A DNA stretch of 59,851 nt, taken from contig CAKZMM010000009.1 in the NCBI GenBank assembly GCA_937128505.1, positions 1 through 59,851 on the forward strand. Reading direction: 5' to 3'. The notes under the pieces are model-generated. The model had not been told where the DNA came from, did no database searches, and was given only the letters and a program-made list of their open reading frames with translations. The DNA is from an uncultured Thermogutta sp. (GTDB taxonomy: Bacteria; Planctomycetota; Planctomycetia; Pirellulales; Thermoguttaceae). A program made the position numbers and the translations under genes. Positions 9,472 to 15,160 of this stretch are shown piece after piece (within the stretch, counting starts at the first letter, position 1; each line of letters begins with the position of its first letter).

Positions 9472-12400
9472 TCAGTCCGCTTCTTCTTCCATAATCACAC
9501 GAAACCCCACGTTGAAGACTGGTTGGTACGGCTGATAAGCCATCCGAAAAGCAGCCCGCGCACGGTGCGGTCGGTCGTACCAAGACCCACCCCGCACCAC
9601 CCGAGGTCCCACCGCATCGAGATCGTTGCGCCCATCATCCTCCCGATACGGATAAGCCCAATAAAGCGAGCGGGTCCACTCCCATACATTACCATGCATG
9701 TCGTATAACCCCCAAGCATTGGGCATGTACTGACCGACCTCGGTGCTCAGGAATGCCCCGTCATCATAGCGGTCCTCTTTCGGGGTCCAATCGTCATAAC
9801 GATTAGGATTGCCGATCACCCTTACCCAAATGTAGGTATCCAATGCGAACTCTCTGAGCCGGGAATCCCCCAGATTGGCAAAGCGGGAAAAGTCGTCCTC
9901 TACCCCGCCGTAGAACATCGGCGAGCTTGTCCCCGCTCGACAGGCGTATTCCCACTGGGCTTCGGTAGGGAGCGAAAACCGCAAGCCGGTGCGCCGGCTC
10001 AGCCACCGACAAAACTCCATTGCCTCCTGCCAGGAAACCCTCACCACTGGCTGCCGGGGCCGATTCACCGGGTAACCGTGAATGCCGAACTGATAACCAC
10101 GCATCGGCTCGACCCCGCTATCGTGGGCCGGATCAAAAAGTGCAAACTGTTCGTTGGTCACCTCGAAGCGGCCCATCCAAAAACCCCGCGAAATCTTCAC
10201 CACTGTCGCCGGCTTTTCATCCTCTAATTCCGCCGGATCCCCGATCATCACCTCCCCCGGCGGAATCCACATCAGCTCCAAACTCACCGATTCGTTCAAT
10301 CTTATCGTCCGCTTCGACTCCCTCAGTGCTCGCTGGAGCTCCTGCGTATTGGCATCTCCAGACACCGCTCCTTGGCTCGATGGCACCGACTCAGGACCGG
10401 TATCCAGGGCCGGCGAATCGCCCCGTCGATCCGCCGCCTTCAAACTCGCTAAGAAAACCTCGCTTGGTTGCCGCGACAACTCCCCCGATACCGGGGCTAG
10501 CCCTTGCGGTATTTTCGCCGTTGAAGACCCCGGGGACCGAGCCCCTGAATCATCCTCCCGCACAACAATCGCCGAATCATCGGCGCCTTGACGCACGCCG
10601 AAGATCCGATCCGCCAGCGTTAGCTGTCGATCGAGCCCCACATCTTCGAGAATATCGGTCATGGATGTATAGCGGCGGCGCATTTCCCAAGCACGCCGGG
10701 CCACCGAAACGACCGTCTCCGGCCCCACAATTTCCCCCCAAGTGCCGTGATACGGGGCATTGAGATCGATCCAGGTGATGAGCCGGTCCCACGCCTCCGC
10801 ATCCAACTGAACGCCGTAGTGTCCCTTGCGAAGCATCTGCACCAGCTCCGTGGTGGAGGCATGGAATTCCATCGGAGTCAGTAACCGGATATTGCTCTCG
10901 ATACCCGGGTGACGGACGTAGCGGTGCAACTCGGCGTAAGCCGCGGAGAATTTCCCGCCGATTCCGACTTGCACATGCCCCGAGATCTGCGTGGACCAAT
11001 CGTCAATCATTCGCTTTCCGCTTAAATCCGGCAATTTCCTGCCCGCATCCGCGGTACCAGCCGGCACGTCGTGACATGGCAGGCACCAGCGGTCGATGAC
11101 CGGCTGCACTTCCCGCGCGAAGCTGAATCCCCGCACTGAACCGTACCAAGGCTCGATTTTCTCAGGCGGCTTCTGGGCGGCCAAAGTAAAGCGATTCAGT
11201 GCCGCGGTATTGGCATGCTCGTGACATCCCACGCACGAGAGCACCTCGCCCGGCATTGCCGTAAACCAACTCCGCATCAGTTGGAGCGCTTGACCATCTG
11301 CATCCAACGGCTGCACAGAGATCGGCGTATACGCCGGTACGCGGAAAAGAGCGGAACCATCTGGCTGCACCGGCACGGTTCCCAATACCCGCTTGATATC
11401 CCAGGGACCATCCATGCCGATCGCCCCCAATAAGCCCCCCATCCCGCGATAACTGAACTGATAGGTAAATAGCCGCAGCTTCTTCACCGTTCCGCGAGGA
11501 ATTCCTTTCAGCCCTCCACCCTGATAGATGTCGGTCAAATAAACGATTGCATCCTGCCGATCGCGACTGACTCGGTCGGCCAGAATGGGCGGTGCCGGTA
11601 TCCGGCGCAACGGCGTGGGCTCCAGCAGGGCATAACCTGGCGTCGCTTTGATCAACACGAAATTATCGAACACATCGACCAAATAAATCCCCCACGGCGA
11701 GTCGGGAGTCAATTGGGCCGATACAAGAAAGTATTTCTCATCCAGCGGATACGGATGGAGGAATTGTGGCCACACCCCATCCACCAAATTATCCCGAATG
11801 AGGCTCGCCACCGCCCGGTTACGACCCGGAATCTCCTGAACTACCCCCATTGCTTCCTCCCGTCCTTGAGCCGGATCTATGATCAGCAGACGCCCCGCAC
11901 GCTGTACCCCGTGGTGACCGGTGGCAATCCCCACGACTTTCGTCGGATGTCCGGGAATAGGTCGGGCGTAAAAGAATGAATTGGGGAAGTACGAATTGGT
12001 CCCATAAAGAGCCATCTGTGCAGTACCGTCGGGATTCATGGAAAAAAGCCGCCGCGAATTCGAGTGGGGTAAATCCGTATACTCCCACCGCAGGTACATC
12101 ACGCGGCCGGAGTTCATCACCACCGGGCACCAATCATGCTCCTGATCGACGGTTAGTTGCCGAATCGAACCCTCTCTTCCCAGGAGGTAAAGGTTGGTGA
12201 TATGGGAACCGCCATAAACACAGGGCACCCCGAGAAAAGTCGCCGTTGACGTAAAGATTATCCGCCCATCAGGCAAATAACACGCGTCGTAATTGTCCAC
12301 ATCGGGTTCGCGGATCAAGGGCAACTCACGCAGCCTGGTCCCATCCGTGCGAATCTCGAACACCTGGAATCGATCGTACGAGCCGGGCATGGAGAAAAGC

Positions 12401-13956
12401 ACCCGCTCGCCATCCCAGTGCAACTCGACATCGCCGACAAACCGACCATCTTCCGGCTGAAACAGCGTCGTCAGTTCTCCCGAAGGGTTTATCGGCGAAA
12501 GGATCGCCAACCGGTTTTCGTATCCGTGAGTGGGCAAACTGGAGTTGCTTTCCCAATTCGCCATAAGCCCTAGCCGATCCTGGCGGCGATGAACCACCAG
12601 AAGCCGATCGAAATCCAGCAAGGGATTGGCCAAAAGAGCCTCGGCTTTCAAGGATTCAAACTCCGAACGAATCCTCTCCAACTCCAAGTCCTGCTGCCCG
12701 AAAAGATCATCTGAATTTGCAGGCAAGGAAAGCGTGGTCGCATCCGGTGGCAAACCCCTTTCCACCGACTCTCGAGGAGCGAGTGAATTTCCCTCCCTCC
12801 ACGGATCCGAAAGCAGCAATTGCTGCTGCTCCCGCAAAGCAGCCAATTGGGCCAAGAATCGCCCGCCATTCGGATACTGCGGACCGAAGCGATCGCTCAA
12901 ATCCCTTACCGCCAGCTCCAACGACTCCCATTCCGCGGGGGAGACCGGCGCAAATTTCCTACCGGGCAAAGTCCCCGCTTCAATCCACACCGGCCACCAA
13001 CGCTCCGGCTGGGCCAAGTAACGCAAAATATTCGCGGTCAGCCTCTCCAAGTTATGCCGAAAGCGGTTAGTTCGAAGACCGAAATGCGGCAGCCGCCACC
13101 CCAATGCAATGGCCCGACCCGAGCCCACCTTGTATTCCACTAAAGGATTTTCCGAATGATTATGGGCCCTGGCCAGCAAAAGGCCCCGGCGAGGCCCACC
13201 GGTTTGGAAGAAATCAGCCGATGCCGGATAACCACCGCTGGTCAGGAAGATCGCTGCCCCCGGCAAGTTCGGGTAAGCCTCCAAACCCTCAAAAATAGGA
13301 TGCGTGGCCCATTCGGCGATGATGGCTGCCTGGTAATCGTCGCGGCCTGCACGAAGGGTTCGCAGCTTCACCGGTTCCCAACCCAGCTCATTGAGGAGCA
13401 GCGTCGCCGCTCCCGAAAGAAAAACTCCTCGTCCGCGCCACACTGCACGCCAAAGCTCCCGAAGGAAGCGCGGATGCTGCCACGCCGCAGGCAGTACCGC
13501 CTCATCCGCCTGATGAATCCAAAGCACCTCAAACTGCCCGAGATCGCCCTCTGGACCTTCCTCGCAAATCACCCCGCCATTCGGCCCCACTTCAAGCAGC
13601 CGACATTCCGTCCACCGTTGAGCCAACTCCCAGGCCGCATAGGATTCGGCACTAAGCGCCTCCGGACGCAACCCGCCGCAAAACAGCCCGACCGTTGGTT
13701 TACTTGATCCAGTCGGCTGAGGATCGCCGCCTTTGGCAATCGTTCCTGGAGCCAGGATCGCCAACACCACAATACCCAAAGGCAAAAGACGCCTCAAAGC
13801 CTCGCCAAAGGCAGCCCTACCTTCGAGCGATTTCTTCCCGAGTTGTTGACCGAGCTTAGGGGCAGGGCATCTACCCATGCCATCCGCCCGAAGTGGCCCT
13901 CCAAGCCTCTGGGCAGGAAAATACCTCATAGCAGTAAGCCGTGCCGGAATGCGCAT
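9472..13956 (-). CDS. HzsA-like diheme protein fused to a formylglycine-generating-enzyme-like domain
   Basis: This 1494-residue protein is probably exported. A hydrophobic segment (LLPLGIVVLAILAPG, near residue 57) precedes an amidotransferase-like region (about 85-340; FEVLWIHQADEAVLP, RGRGVFLSGAATLLL, HPIFEGL). A beta-propeller (about 440-890) follows, with blades such as YLPDGRIIFTSTA and SMNPDGTAQ like the hydrazine-synthase-alpha middle domain. Two c-type heme sites, CVGCH at 908 and CLPCH at 958, come next with the EMLRKGHYGV-type tail (here VQMLRKGHYGV). A low-complexity linker leads to a SUMF1/EgtB-like domain (about 1220-1494; MWIPPGEVMIGD, FEVTNEQF, LPTEAQWEYACRAGT, DMHGNVWEW, VVRGGSWYDRP, NVGFRVI). 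The two catalytic cysteines of true formylglycine-generating enzymes are absent (GGSWYDRPHRARAAFR). The ATG at 13956 has GGAG 9 nt upstream; the frame extends to 14049. Hydrazine synthesis is not implied; the function is unknown. Confidence 0.88.
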   Translation of the reverse strand: MRIPARLTAMRYFPAQRLGGPLRADGMGRCPAPKLGQQLGKKSLEGRAAFGEALRRLLPLGIVVLAILAPGTIAKGGDPQPTGSSKPTVGLFCGGLRPEALSAESYAAWELAQRWTECRLLEVGPNGGVICEEGPEGDLGQFEVLWIHQADEAVLPAAWQHPRFLRELWRAVWRGRGVFLSGAATLLLNELGWEPVKLRTLRAGRDDYQAAIIAEWATHPIFEGLEAYPNLPGAAIFLTSGGYPASADFFQTGGPRRGLLLARAHNHSENPLVEYKVGSGRAIALGWRLPHFGLRTNRFRHNLERLTANILRYLAQPERWWPVWIEAGTLPGRKFAPVSPAEWESLELAVRDLSDRFGPQYPNGGRFLAQLAALREQQQLLLSDPWREGNSLAPRESVERGLPPDATTLSLPANSDDLFGQQDLELERIRSEFESLKAEALLANPLLDFDRLLVVHRRQDRLGLMANWESNSSLPTHGYENRLAILSPINPSGELTTLFQPEDGRFVGDVELHWDGERVLFSMPGSYDRFQVFEIRTDGTRLRELPLIREPDVDNYDACYLPDGRIIFTSTATFLGVPCVYGGSHITNLYLLGREGSIRQLTVDQEHDWCPVVMNSGRVMYLRWEYTDLPHSNSRRLFSMNPDGTAQMALYGTNSYFPNSFFYARPIPGHPTKVVGIATGHHGVQRAGRLLIIDPAQGREEAMGVVQEIPGRNRAVASLIRDNLVDGVWPQFLHPYPLDEKYFLVSAQLTPDSPWGIYLVDVFDNFVLIKATPGYALLEPTPLRRIPAPPILADRVSRDRQDAIVYLTDIYQGGGLKGIPRGTVKKLRLFTYQFSYRGMGGLLGAIGMDGPWDIKRVLGTVPVQPDGSALFRVPAYTPISVQPLDADGQALQLMRSWFTAMPGEVLSCVGCHEHANTAALNRFTLAAQKPPEKIEPWYGSVRGFSFAREVQPVIDRWCLPCHDVPAGTADAGRKLPDLSGKRMIDDWSTQISGHVQVGIGGKFSAAYAELHRYVRHPGIESNIRLLTPMEFHASTTELVQMLRKGHYGVQLDAEAWDRLITWIDLNAPYHGTWGEIVGPETVVSVARRAWEMRRRYTSMTDILEDVGLDRQLTLADRIFGVRQGADDSAIVVREDDSGARSPGSSTAKIPQGLAPVSGELSRQPSEVFLASLKAADRRGDSPALDTGPESVPSSQGAVSGDANTQELQRALRESKRTIRLNESVSLELMWIPPGEVMIGDPAELEDEKPATVVKISRGFWMGRFEVTNEQFALFDPAHDSGVEPMRGYQFGIHGYPVNRPRQPVVRVSWQEAMEFCRWLSRRTGLRFSLPTEAQWEYACRAGTSSPMFYGGVEDDFSRFANLGDSRLREFALDTYIWVRVIGNPNRYDDWTPKEDRYDDGAFLSTEVGQYMPNAWGLYDMHGNVWEWTRSLYWAYPYREDDGRNDLDAVGPRVVRGGSWYDRPHRARAAFRMAYQPYQPVFNVGFRVIMEEEAD

Positions 13957-15160
13957 AGGAAACCGCTCCAAATTGATTTCTTGTTTCTTCCCCAAAGCCA
14001 CCAATCTTGCCTGACGCGAATTCCTTCCCGGACCAAAACTCGGGCCCAATCGGGCAATGTACCTCCCAACTGCTGCATCCTCACCGAGGCAGAAAACGCG
14101 GGATTTCTGACCGATCCGAACCTTTGCGGTCTAAGCTGGCCAGGAACCGGGAGGCTAAAAAGCGATCGAACCGTTCTTAAAGCGATAGCAGTTTAACCGA
14201 TTTCCGAGAATTTCGTTGCGGAGGTTTATTTTCGCGAAGCTTCTCTGCCATTTCGTGAAGCAAGCTGGTTGAAACCCGGTTATTTCCCAATTCGGAGAAA
14301 AAGCTGCTGGGGAAGGAAGCTTGTATTTGATAGGAGTTTTCGCCTCTTCTGCTGCCGTCGCCATCCTCGCCCACCATTTGCCTGAGTGCCGGGGTAAAGG
14401 GACTGCCGCGATCAAGCTTCACCTATCGCGATTCGACTGCTCGACTCCATGGGCGAGCACACCAGGCAAGGGTAGCCAAATCCACAGTCGCCGTTGCCGG
14501 AAATACCACGACCCCTATAATGGTCCCTTCATACTAATGGTCCCTTCCTACAAAAAAACGCTAACCCACCTTTTGTTTATTTAAAAGGGGACATTTCAAC
14601 GGAGGCATAACGGCTCCTGCAGGCTCCCATCGACCGCCGGAAGAAGTTACCAAAAGACCTGAAAGTTCATCGCTATAGCGTAATTGGAAAAACACAGCAT
14701 GACGGCCCTCATACACCGCGTATTTTAAAGACCACCGGTGGTGAGATTACCAGCTACTATACCACTTGTGACCATGCCCGGGCACAACTCGAAAGCTTGG
14801 AAAACTCGTGTCCGAAAAAAGCTTCACCGGCTGTCGGAACTCTTTGAGGGCCTGAGGGTTATTCCAAACAGCTTGACGCCCTAAAAAATTTTTTGAGAAT
14901 GTTCGCAATTTAACTTCGAGGAGAAATAGACGGCAAAAAACACAAAGACCAATAAAAGTAACAAAGACAGTGCAAATAGGATGAATACACAAAAGGCGCA
15001 CAACTGCAAACTCAGGTTCCTCTGTCAGGAAGCAATGAGTTGAGGCAATCATTTGCCTACCTCACTTTAGATCACCCATGTGCGCCTTTACGCCAGACCT
15101 ACTGACACCAAAGAAATACTGAACTGGCACCAAAGAAATACTGACGCCAAGGAGCTCGCT
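13957..15160. other. Non-coding stretch, about 1.2 kb
   Basis: No credible gene. It contains a direct repeat TAATGGTCCCTTC at 14518 and 14535 (period 17) and a 22-bp-period repeat near the end (15102-15144). The minus-strand part next to 13956 should hold the promoter of the giant fusion gene, but no clear one stands out. Confidence 0.55.
15102..15144. repeat. 21-bp direct repeat pair, period 22
   Basis: CTGACACCAAAGAAATACTG A at 15102-15122 and CTGGCACCAAAGAAATACTG A at 15124-15144 differ at one base. The pair lies immediately upstream of the ribosome site of the zinc ribbon gene. Confidence 0.8.

Follow-up and report, generated by a model that had tools for sequence, protein, structure and literature searches.

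What is a protein with the fold of hydrazine synthase alpha (HzsA) of the anammox (anaerobic ammonium oxidation) bacteria doing in a planctomycete in whose genome the anammox HzsA model NF052339 finds no match at E 1e-100, and fused there to a domain of the formylglycine-generating enzyme (FGE) type? The gene in question lies in a 59,851-nucleotide stretch of DNA (the window) from an uncultured Thermogutta sp. (contig CAKZMM010000009.1), where an open reading frame (ORF) at 13956-9472 on the minus strand encodes 1494 amino acids free of internal stops. A first-pass annotation, made by a model from the sequence, had described this single intact ORF and its non-anammox setting, and both descriptions stand. 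Read from the N-terminus, the whole ORF (9472..13956, minus strand, as are all features below) comprises a DUF4960-like module, an HzsA-like propeller with two heme c domains, a disordered linker and an FGE/PvdO-like domain. This anatomy is secure; from it we infer a chemistry, tentatively, and suggest a diheme oxidoreductase that is secreted and directed at glycans. Its PvdO-like domain would bind a substrate or oxidise it and deliver the electrons to the hemes, an answer that is quite possible rather than probable.

Relatives were sought in ~85,000 species genomes with an alignment built from fusions, and at least 524 were confirmed. The best 80 loci were analysed, and 77 of these hold 82 single-ORF fusions, every one (82/82) with exactly two CxxCH motifs. 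Conservation is given below for an alignment of 79 rows, namely the window protein and 78 of the 82 fused ORFs. The four that were dropped (the first copy in L062, L081, L086 and L088) begin their alignment more than 40 residues into the query; L088, from Parabacteroides gordonii, is present in another alignment (A4).

Domain anatomy of the fusion protein

The HzsA-like core (residues 426-1100, 10657..12681) consists of a propeller, an alpha-I-type heme domain and an alpha-II-type cytochrome c domain, in the same order as in HzsA. Superposed with VIA-align on residues 52-802 of the HzsA chain 5c2v_A, it gives Z 33.0 and a root-mean-square deviation of 3.1 over 563 residues, a whole-chain match whose range takes in all three regions; the superposition list included hardly any alternative folds for heme domains. 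Both heme c motifs are aligned with those of HzsA in the profile comparisons. Foldseek scores the same chain at E 2.7e-26 with a target TM of 0.60, and a profile of the hydrazine synthase (HZS) half matches it at E 1.3e-13, the next match standing at 0.024. Superposition on HzsA and on FGE, proposed as a check in the first-pass annotation, returns HzsA for the first half and the FGE fold for the second, with PvdO nearest. The propeller that the annotation likened to the middle domain of HzsA is indeed present, but in HzsA itself the propeller comes first in the chain, as the N-terminal domain, and heme alpha-I sits in the middle one (excerpts of PMC12758564). In a Pfam scan at E<=1 only two families match the ORF, and it belongs to both: HZS_alpha (PF18582, the middle domain) at residues 822-913 (11218..11493) with 108 bits against a gathering cut-off of 26.6, and FGE-sulfatase (PF03781) at residues 1228-1488 with 163 bits against 23.3. 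Within the propeller, C579, H631 and H682 (11911..12222), each invariant in all 79 rows and spaced 51-52 residues apart, may constitute a metal site.

AlphaFold2 models were made of residues 426-1494, together with 78 relatives, and separately of residues 71-490. The former has a mean predicted local distance difference test (pLDDT) of 88.3 and a predicted TM score (pTM) of 0.89, its one long low-confidence stretch being the linker (residues 1104-1198, 10363..10647, pLDDT mostly <50). So high a pTM, in spite of the disordered linker, suggests that the two halves are fixed relative to each other.

Both heme sites were correctly placed at the outset, CVGCHEHAN at 908-916 and CLPCHD at 958-963. 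The first motif (CVGCH, 908-912, 11221..11235) is the counterpart of HzsA heme alpha-I in alignment, and the second (CLPCH, 958-962, 11071..11085; invariant, 79/79) that of heme alpha-II. The tyrosine reported missing beyond the first motif is missing throughout the family: Asn916 occupies the position of HzsA Tyr591, four residues after the motif histidine, where the 79 rows have N in 63, S in eight, other residues in the rest and Y in none, as compared to Y (within CxGCHxGSY) in 12/12 anammox HzsA sequences. In HzsA this tyrosine ligates heme alpha-I while the CxxCH histidine binds zinc (excerpts of PMC12758564 and PMC12607021). Its loss is no peculiarity of the window gene, since Tyr591 is described as absent also from the non-anammox HzsA homologues of clades I-III (excerpts of PMC12758564). 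Heme 1, around which R895, W897 and E904 are invariant, probably has ordinary histidine ligation from CxxCH without a tyrosine.

For heme 2, the present analysis adds H1046 (HYGVQL...WIDL, 10819..10821) as the likely distal ligand and candidate counterpart of HzsA His772. It is invariant (79/79) and stands 84 residues past the heme histidine in the window protein, compared to 83 in 12/12 HzsA sequences and a range of 58 to 107 among fusions; this residue and the HzsA histidine both precede a W-[IV]-D segment, though hhalign sets the two one column apart. Heme 2 is thus predicted to be bis-His (H962/H1046), probably with an electron-transfer role. The nine other HZS_alpha proteins of the same genome include six with HxGV...W[IL][DE] (the second fusion among them) and a seventh with a looser form, while two lack the motif.

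The C-terminal FGE-sulfatase/PvdO-like domain (residues 1228-1488, 9493..10275) superposes best on PvdO (5hha; Z 29.9), followed by Tvp1 (2y3c; Z 29.8), PorK (Z 26.8) and then the FGEs. With SUMF1 it shares the fold, the Pfam family and a conserved NxxEW segment, a calcium site in FGE. It differs from SUMF1 in lacking the catalytic cysteines, as had been claimed from the sequence: the copper-binding C336 and C341 of SUMF1 correspond to D1461 (Cys in 0/79) and A1466 (Cys in 12/79), and no row of the 79 has the pair. D1461, within GGSWYDRP (1456-1463, 9568..9591), is Asp in 70/79 rows, and PvdO has a Glu aligned there. The fusions are further marked off from a set of 11 other FGE-like proteins, which excludes PvdO, by H1278 (10123..10125; 79/79, His in 1/11), R1306 (76/79), N1361 (79/79) and D1364 (79/79), each of the last three being found in 0/11 and the last two falling at positions that are mostly gaps in the other proteins.

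The N-terminal module (residues ~85-318, 13003..13704) is predicted to have a flavodoxin/GATase/ThuA-type fold (mean pLDDT 76.5). Foldseek ranks 8aa2_G of the levan utilisome first (E 8.6e-9), then STM3548 (2gk3) and the ThuA-like 1t0b; a profile search matches the DUF4960 chain 8aa2_T at E 1.9e-6, and 17 of 18 rows match DUF4960 (PF16324) at E<=0.1, the best at 2.1e-7. The earlier label "amidotransferase-like" was right as to a GATase/ThuA-type fold but not as to the nearest relative, which is the glycan-binding DUF4960. An amidotransferase function was considered and set aside: the fold is common to both, yet DUF4960 is nearer. Levan binding by a DUF4960 protein has been observed experimentally (excerpts of PMC10076258).

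It is this end of the protein that differs among relatives. BLAST to the window protein finds a DUF4960-like N-terminus in 18/82 fusions. Another 35 have other long N-termini, with Pfam matches (rows possibly overlapping) to F5_F8_type_C (4), F5_F8_type_C_2 (4), CBM_6 (4), Laminin_G_3 (3), and NPCBM, Laminin_G_2 and CBM_35 (1 each). On the tree of cores the DUF4960-like label (72 rows) needs at least 6 changes, compared to a shuffled mean of 16.3 and a lowest value of 13 in 100 shuffles, and a three-state N-terminus label needs 13. Comparison of sequence and fold thus points here to a glycan-binding-type module at the N-terminus, the exchangeable part of the protein. It seems that part of the family, at least, is aimed at glycans by such modules, and this is the strongest functional hint we have.

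Upstream of the module, a hydrophobic, signal-like segment (residues ~57-76, 13729..13788) reaches a 12-mer hydropathy of 3.0 at residue 57. By the same crude hydropathy test a hydrophobic 12-mer falls within the first 95 residues of 63/73 five-prime-complete fused relatives, and the protein is probably exported. Its true start is uncertain: the longest reading begins with a TTG at 14049, the first ~50 residues are unconserved in the alignment of relatives, and one candidate start codon, read from the sequence, is the TTG at residue 54. A scan for promoters and terminators was uninformative (0 promoter-like sites; 5 terminator-like sites vs 6.7 in shuffles).

What the fusion may do, and what else it might be

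The oxidoreductase that we tentatively favour would work as follows. The exchangeable glycan-binding-type module, here DUF4960-like, would anchor the protein at a polysaccharide or a cell-surface glycan. The HzsA-like core would bear two c-type hemes, the second for electron transfer, and the docked PvdO-type domain would bind or oxidise a substrate and hand electrons to them. The hemes would relay these to a further protein, for which a nearby YVTN-propeller/MauG-type diheme protein is a possible candidate in some genomes. PvdO itself is a periplasmic oxidoreductase, and the proposal shares with it the feature of periplasmic oxidation chemistry; once purified it was inactive and no cofactor could be detected in it, and its electron pathway was not clarified (excerpts of the 2018 review PMC6206403). 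A covalent fusion to a cytochrome would supply a PvdO-type domain with just such a pathway, and the natural occurrence of this fusion suggests that such domains can pass electrons to c-type hemes. What had been called a new exported redox or modification enzyme thus stands as an exported-looking, two-heme, HzsA-like protein joined to an FGE fold; a modification-enzyme role is possible.

Several observations weigh against this proposal. The pTM is the sole measure of how the modelled domains are placed, and the match to PvdO at D1461 is a single aligned position. FGE folds also act as binding or structural domains, as in Tvp1 and PorK. On the glycan side, the Foldseek TM to the levan protein 8aa2_G is only 0.43, the window's own PF16324 score is 13.9 bits, below the cut-off of 29.2, at least 16/35 of the other long N-termini have no Pfam match at E 0.01, and 24/82 fusions, including all seven from Bacteroidota, have a short N-terminus with no room for a module. 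As for partners, most loci show no recurring neighbour. The four neighbours of the window gene have no homologue near the fusions in the 80 loci except for one weak match (the window's solute-binding protein, in L115), and the two clear HZS beta-gamma-like genes of the same genome are on contigs without an HZS_alpha match. A search for biochemistry on any member of the family found none.

One alternative is a protein that is not an enzyme at all, a surface or periplasmic electron-transfer or adhesion protein whose FGE fold serves as a C-type-lectin-like ligand binder (as in Tvp1) or a structural domain (as in PorK), whose hemes only relay and whose N-terminal module is a second binder. We consider this somewhat doubtful, albeit a main rival. 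It draws on the superposition scores, in which Tvp1 is tied with PvdO and PorK follows, on the absence of the FGE cysteine pair from every row, and on the sugar-binding-type N-termini. Against it stand the family-specific conservation of H1278, R1306, N1361 and D1364 and the invariant surroundings of heme 1 (R895, W897, E904), either of which would also be compatible with a conserved interface.

The other main alternative, an unlikely one, makes the fusion a subunit of a hydrazine-synthase-like complex, in which a beta-gamma-like, MauG/CCP-type propeller diheme partner would do peroxide- or NO-linked chemistry at its heme and the fusion would carry out the step that follows, its substrate being a small molecule, a protein or a glycan. 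The one recurring neighbour is of this kind. A protein with a YVTN propeller and a diheme MauG/CCP-type domain, fitting the published description of HZS beta-gamma-like homologues, is encoded on either strand within ~9 kb of the fusion in 9/77 loci (L045, L080, L092, L094, L100, L108, L114, L119 and L122), directly adjoining it in five (L045, L080, L100, L119 and L122; the L122 gene runs off the end of its contig, with no heme motif visible). The BLAST cluster containing these genes covers 12 loci, from which L051 and L123 (three-heme CCP-type proteins with no YVTN start) and L056 (a propeller neighbour without a heme motif) were left out. The same pairing has been published for other HzsA-like clades (excerpts of PMC12758564). 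Nonetheless, the partner is unseen in 68/77 neighbourhoods (the loci are often short), no beta-gamma-like gene lies beside the window gene, and in the window's genome partner-like and HZS_alpha genes are, as noted, on different contigs. The known hydrazine step is unlikely in any case because Tyr591 is absent from all 79 rows.

A Pfam tally of neighbours compared 101 proteins beside fusions with 101 from the same loci whose genes lie four or more genes off, omitting ORFs <150 or >700 amino acids (125 of the 178 far proteins were sampled, and the first 101 of these were taken). Propeller and MauG-type families lead the near list, the commonest with 6 vs 2 far, and CCP_MauG has 3 near and is not among the 25 far families shown. 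Gfo/Idh proteins, present in 10 loci, were set aside because they are not enriched near fusions (2 near vs 3 far). In the window itself an operon with the adjacent ceramidase-like gene was considered and rejected (the gap is 334 bases, and the window's neighbours do not recur). Two Bacteroidota loci, L088 (8593-12800) and L107 (8713-12928), have the fusion followed almost directly by a gene of ~300 residues, propeller-lipoprotein-like by eye, and two-heme enzymes in Parabacteroides gordonii and Bacteroides cutis may merit attention. Elsewhere in the window's genome, L138 (G000:C145, 604-5282) encodes a 968-residue protein with ten CxxCH motifs that matches the HZS beta-gamma-like query. Its contig has no HZS_alpha match, and the gene adjoins one that is CRTAC1/FG-GAP-like by eye, an arrangement resembling clade I in excerpts of PMC12758564.

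A true formylglycine-generating (sulfatase-activating) or EgtB-type enzyme with an extra cytochrome has the FGE-sulfatase score of 163 bits in its favour, yet it is largely refuted and very improbable, given the missing copper cysteines, scores of 63.1 bits against a cut-off of 360 for the EgtB equivalog TIGR03440 and 95.3 against 500 for the PvdO equivalog NF051459, and no other Pfam domain (e.g. a DinB-type iron domain) at E<=1.

Distribution and history of the fusion

That an assembly or sequencing error joined two genes is hardly conceivable: the assembly is a draft of 198 contigs, but fused ORFs are found in 77 of the 80 loci and full-length in at least 4/149 genomes of a phylum sample, and the same genome has a second fusion. 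The concern raised in the first-pass annotation, that the halves might normally be separate genes joined here by error, is answered accordingly, with the addition that the halves also exist apart. The window's genome has 10 HZS_alpha genes (loci L129-L137), two of them FGE-fused and eight unfused with two or three CxxCH motifs, and 2/4 of its FGE-fold genes are unfused. The nearest fused orthologue is 72% identical to the window protein over the HZS part, and the existence of fused orthologues excludes a chance joining.

Neither is the fusion peculiar to one genome; it is found in several bacterial phyla. By record label, the fused loci belong to Planctomycetota (38), Hydrogenedentes/Hydrogenedentota (11), Verrucomicrobiota (9), Bacteroidota (7, including Parabacteroides gordonii and Bacteroides cutis), Lentisphaerota (3), Acidobacteriota (2) and seven labels represented once. 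Some of these records are probably misbinned metagenome-assembled genomes. The share of fused loci (77/80) is biased, as the query was built from fusions. Three of the 80 loci yielded no fusion. L059 stops shortly past the HZS part; L060 and L074 have no match among called ORFs, though tblastn matched query residues 79-1490 and 439-1492 there, so that the gene caller is likely at fault (it follows a longest-ORF rule and yields false ORFs in GC-rich contigs).

A narrower search found at least 40 relatives, with fused ORFs extracted from 17 of the 25 genomes (G000-G024) that share the window's family and from G032, which belongs to a different family; the matches listed include one further fusion of the window's family (G007:C788). 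Its loci overlap with those of the wide scan (L016=L053, L019=L055, L020=L052 and L028=L110, recognised by a shared 300-residue stretch), so the two counts are not summed. The phylum sample counted the domain order across planctomycetes, as had been suggested, in 149 genomes at least 80% complete with at most five candidates scored in each. The full-length fusion occurs in at least four (G000, G056, G077 and G173, one of them multi-copy), and at least 144/149 match the profile somewhere, among the matches listed mostly by the FGE part. The distribution within the phylum is patchy.

When the cores of 80 fused and 19 unfused proteins are placed on a tree (a quick LG+G4 tree in which several long non-fusion branches are uncertain), the fusions form nearly a single, strongly supported clade. 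The fused label needs 2 changes, compared to a shuffled mean of 17.7, and the one unfused ORF nested inside, L059, ends near a contig end. The interleaving of phyla within the clade points to horizontal transfer or to misbinning, and the family seems to have moved from phylum to phylum. The pairwise distances computed for one half correlate with those for the other (Mantel r 0.57, with 0/999 permutations as high), as expected if the halves have stayed together.

Three loci carry fusions in tandem, L049 (8911-16102), L098 (242-7419) and L106 (6148-13541). In L049 and L098 a copy with a DUF4960-like N-terminus adjoins one whose N-terminus is short, and nature thus offers a pair for testing the role of the module. 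The record of L055 (JABMRB010000785.1, labelled Candidatus Nealsonbacteria) holds the same fusion as L019 of G018, from the window's family, and is probably mislabelled or misbinned. Open frames of 1751 residues with two distinct matches to the FGE-like part of the profile occur at G103:C1:4838418-4840274 and G084:C1:2805585-2807426.

Relation to known systems, and meaning

The fusion resembles HzsA in its core, in both CxxCH motifs and, by alignment, probably in the distal histidine of heme alpha-II. It differs in the loss of the Tyr591 counterpart and in the added N-terminal module and C-terminal FGE fold, and membership in hydrazine synthase proper was rejected, there being no tyrosine ligand and a score of 25.7 bits against an NF052339 cut-off of 800. 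The non-anammox HzsA-like clades I-IV of Hagglund et al. 2025 (excerpts of PMC12758564) have the core and an occasional beta-gamma-like linkage. Clades I-III share the loss of Tyr591, and clade I differs in that the distal His772, apparently present in the fusion, is described as absent there. The words formylglycine, sulfatase and SUMF1 do not occur in the main text of that paper. No precedent for the fusion in print was found in the open-licence PMC literature, which is weak evidence of absence; a single open-licence paper names both hydrazine synthase and formylglycine, but apart from each other, in a figure legend and in a table.

PvdO, nearest in fold to the C-terminal half and likewise acidic at the FGE Cys336 position, differs in being free-standing. 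The N-terminal module is like the DUF4960 levan-binding surface proteins (8aa2, 8a9y) in fold, with a weak match in sequence. Redox enzymes that bear a carbohydrate-binding module (CBM), such as cellobiose dehydrogenase, combine a sugar-binding module, a heme domain and a second domain, and the fusion follows the same general plan; it differs from these in its heme fold, and no flavin domain was found in it.

HzsA was formerly held to have no homologues outside anammox bacteria, and its non-anammox relatives, now numerous, have no known function (excerpts of PMC12758564). The fusion branch brings functional hints to them: a variable slot for sugar-binding-type modules, a PvdO-like domain and, by alignment, a predicted bis-His heme alpha-II. 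Two fusion loci are labelled as named strains, Parabacteroides gordonii MS-1 and Bacteroides cutis Marseille-P4118, which makes the question accessible to bench work. The fusion offers a testable guess on the role of the HzsA fold outside anammox and on the electron pathway of PvdO. A bolder and rather doubtful form of that guess is a new class of secreted, glycan-active oxidoreductases in which a cofactor-poor, PvdO-like FGE-fold domain, aimed by exchangeable CBMs, would oxidise a polysaccharide-linked group and pass the electrons directly to the HzsA-like diheme relay fused to it. If true, it would show both where the electrons of PvdO-type domains go and what use is made of the HzsA fold by organisms other than anammox bacteria.

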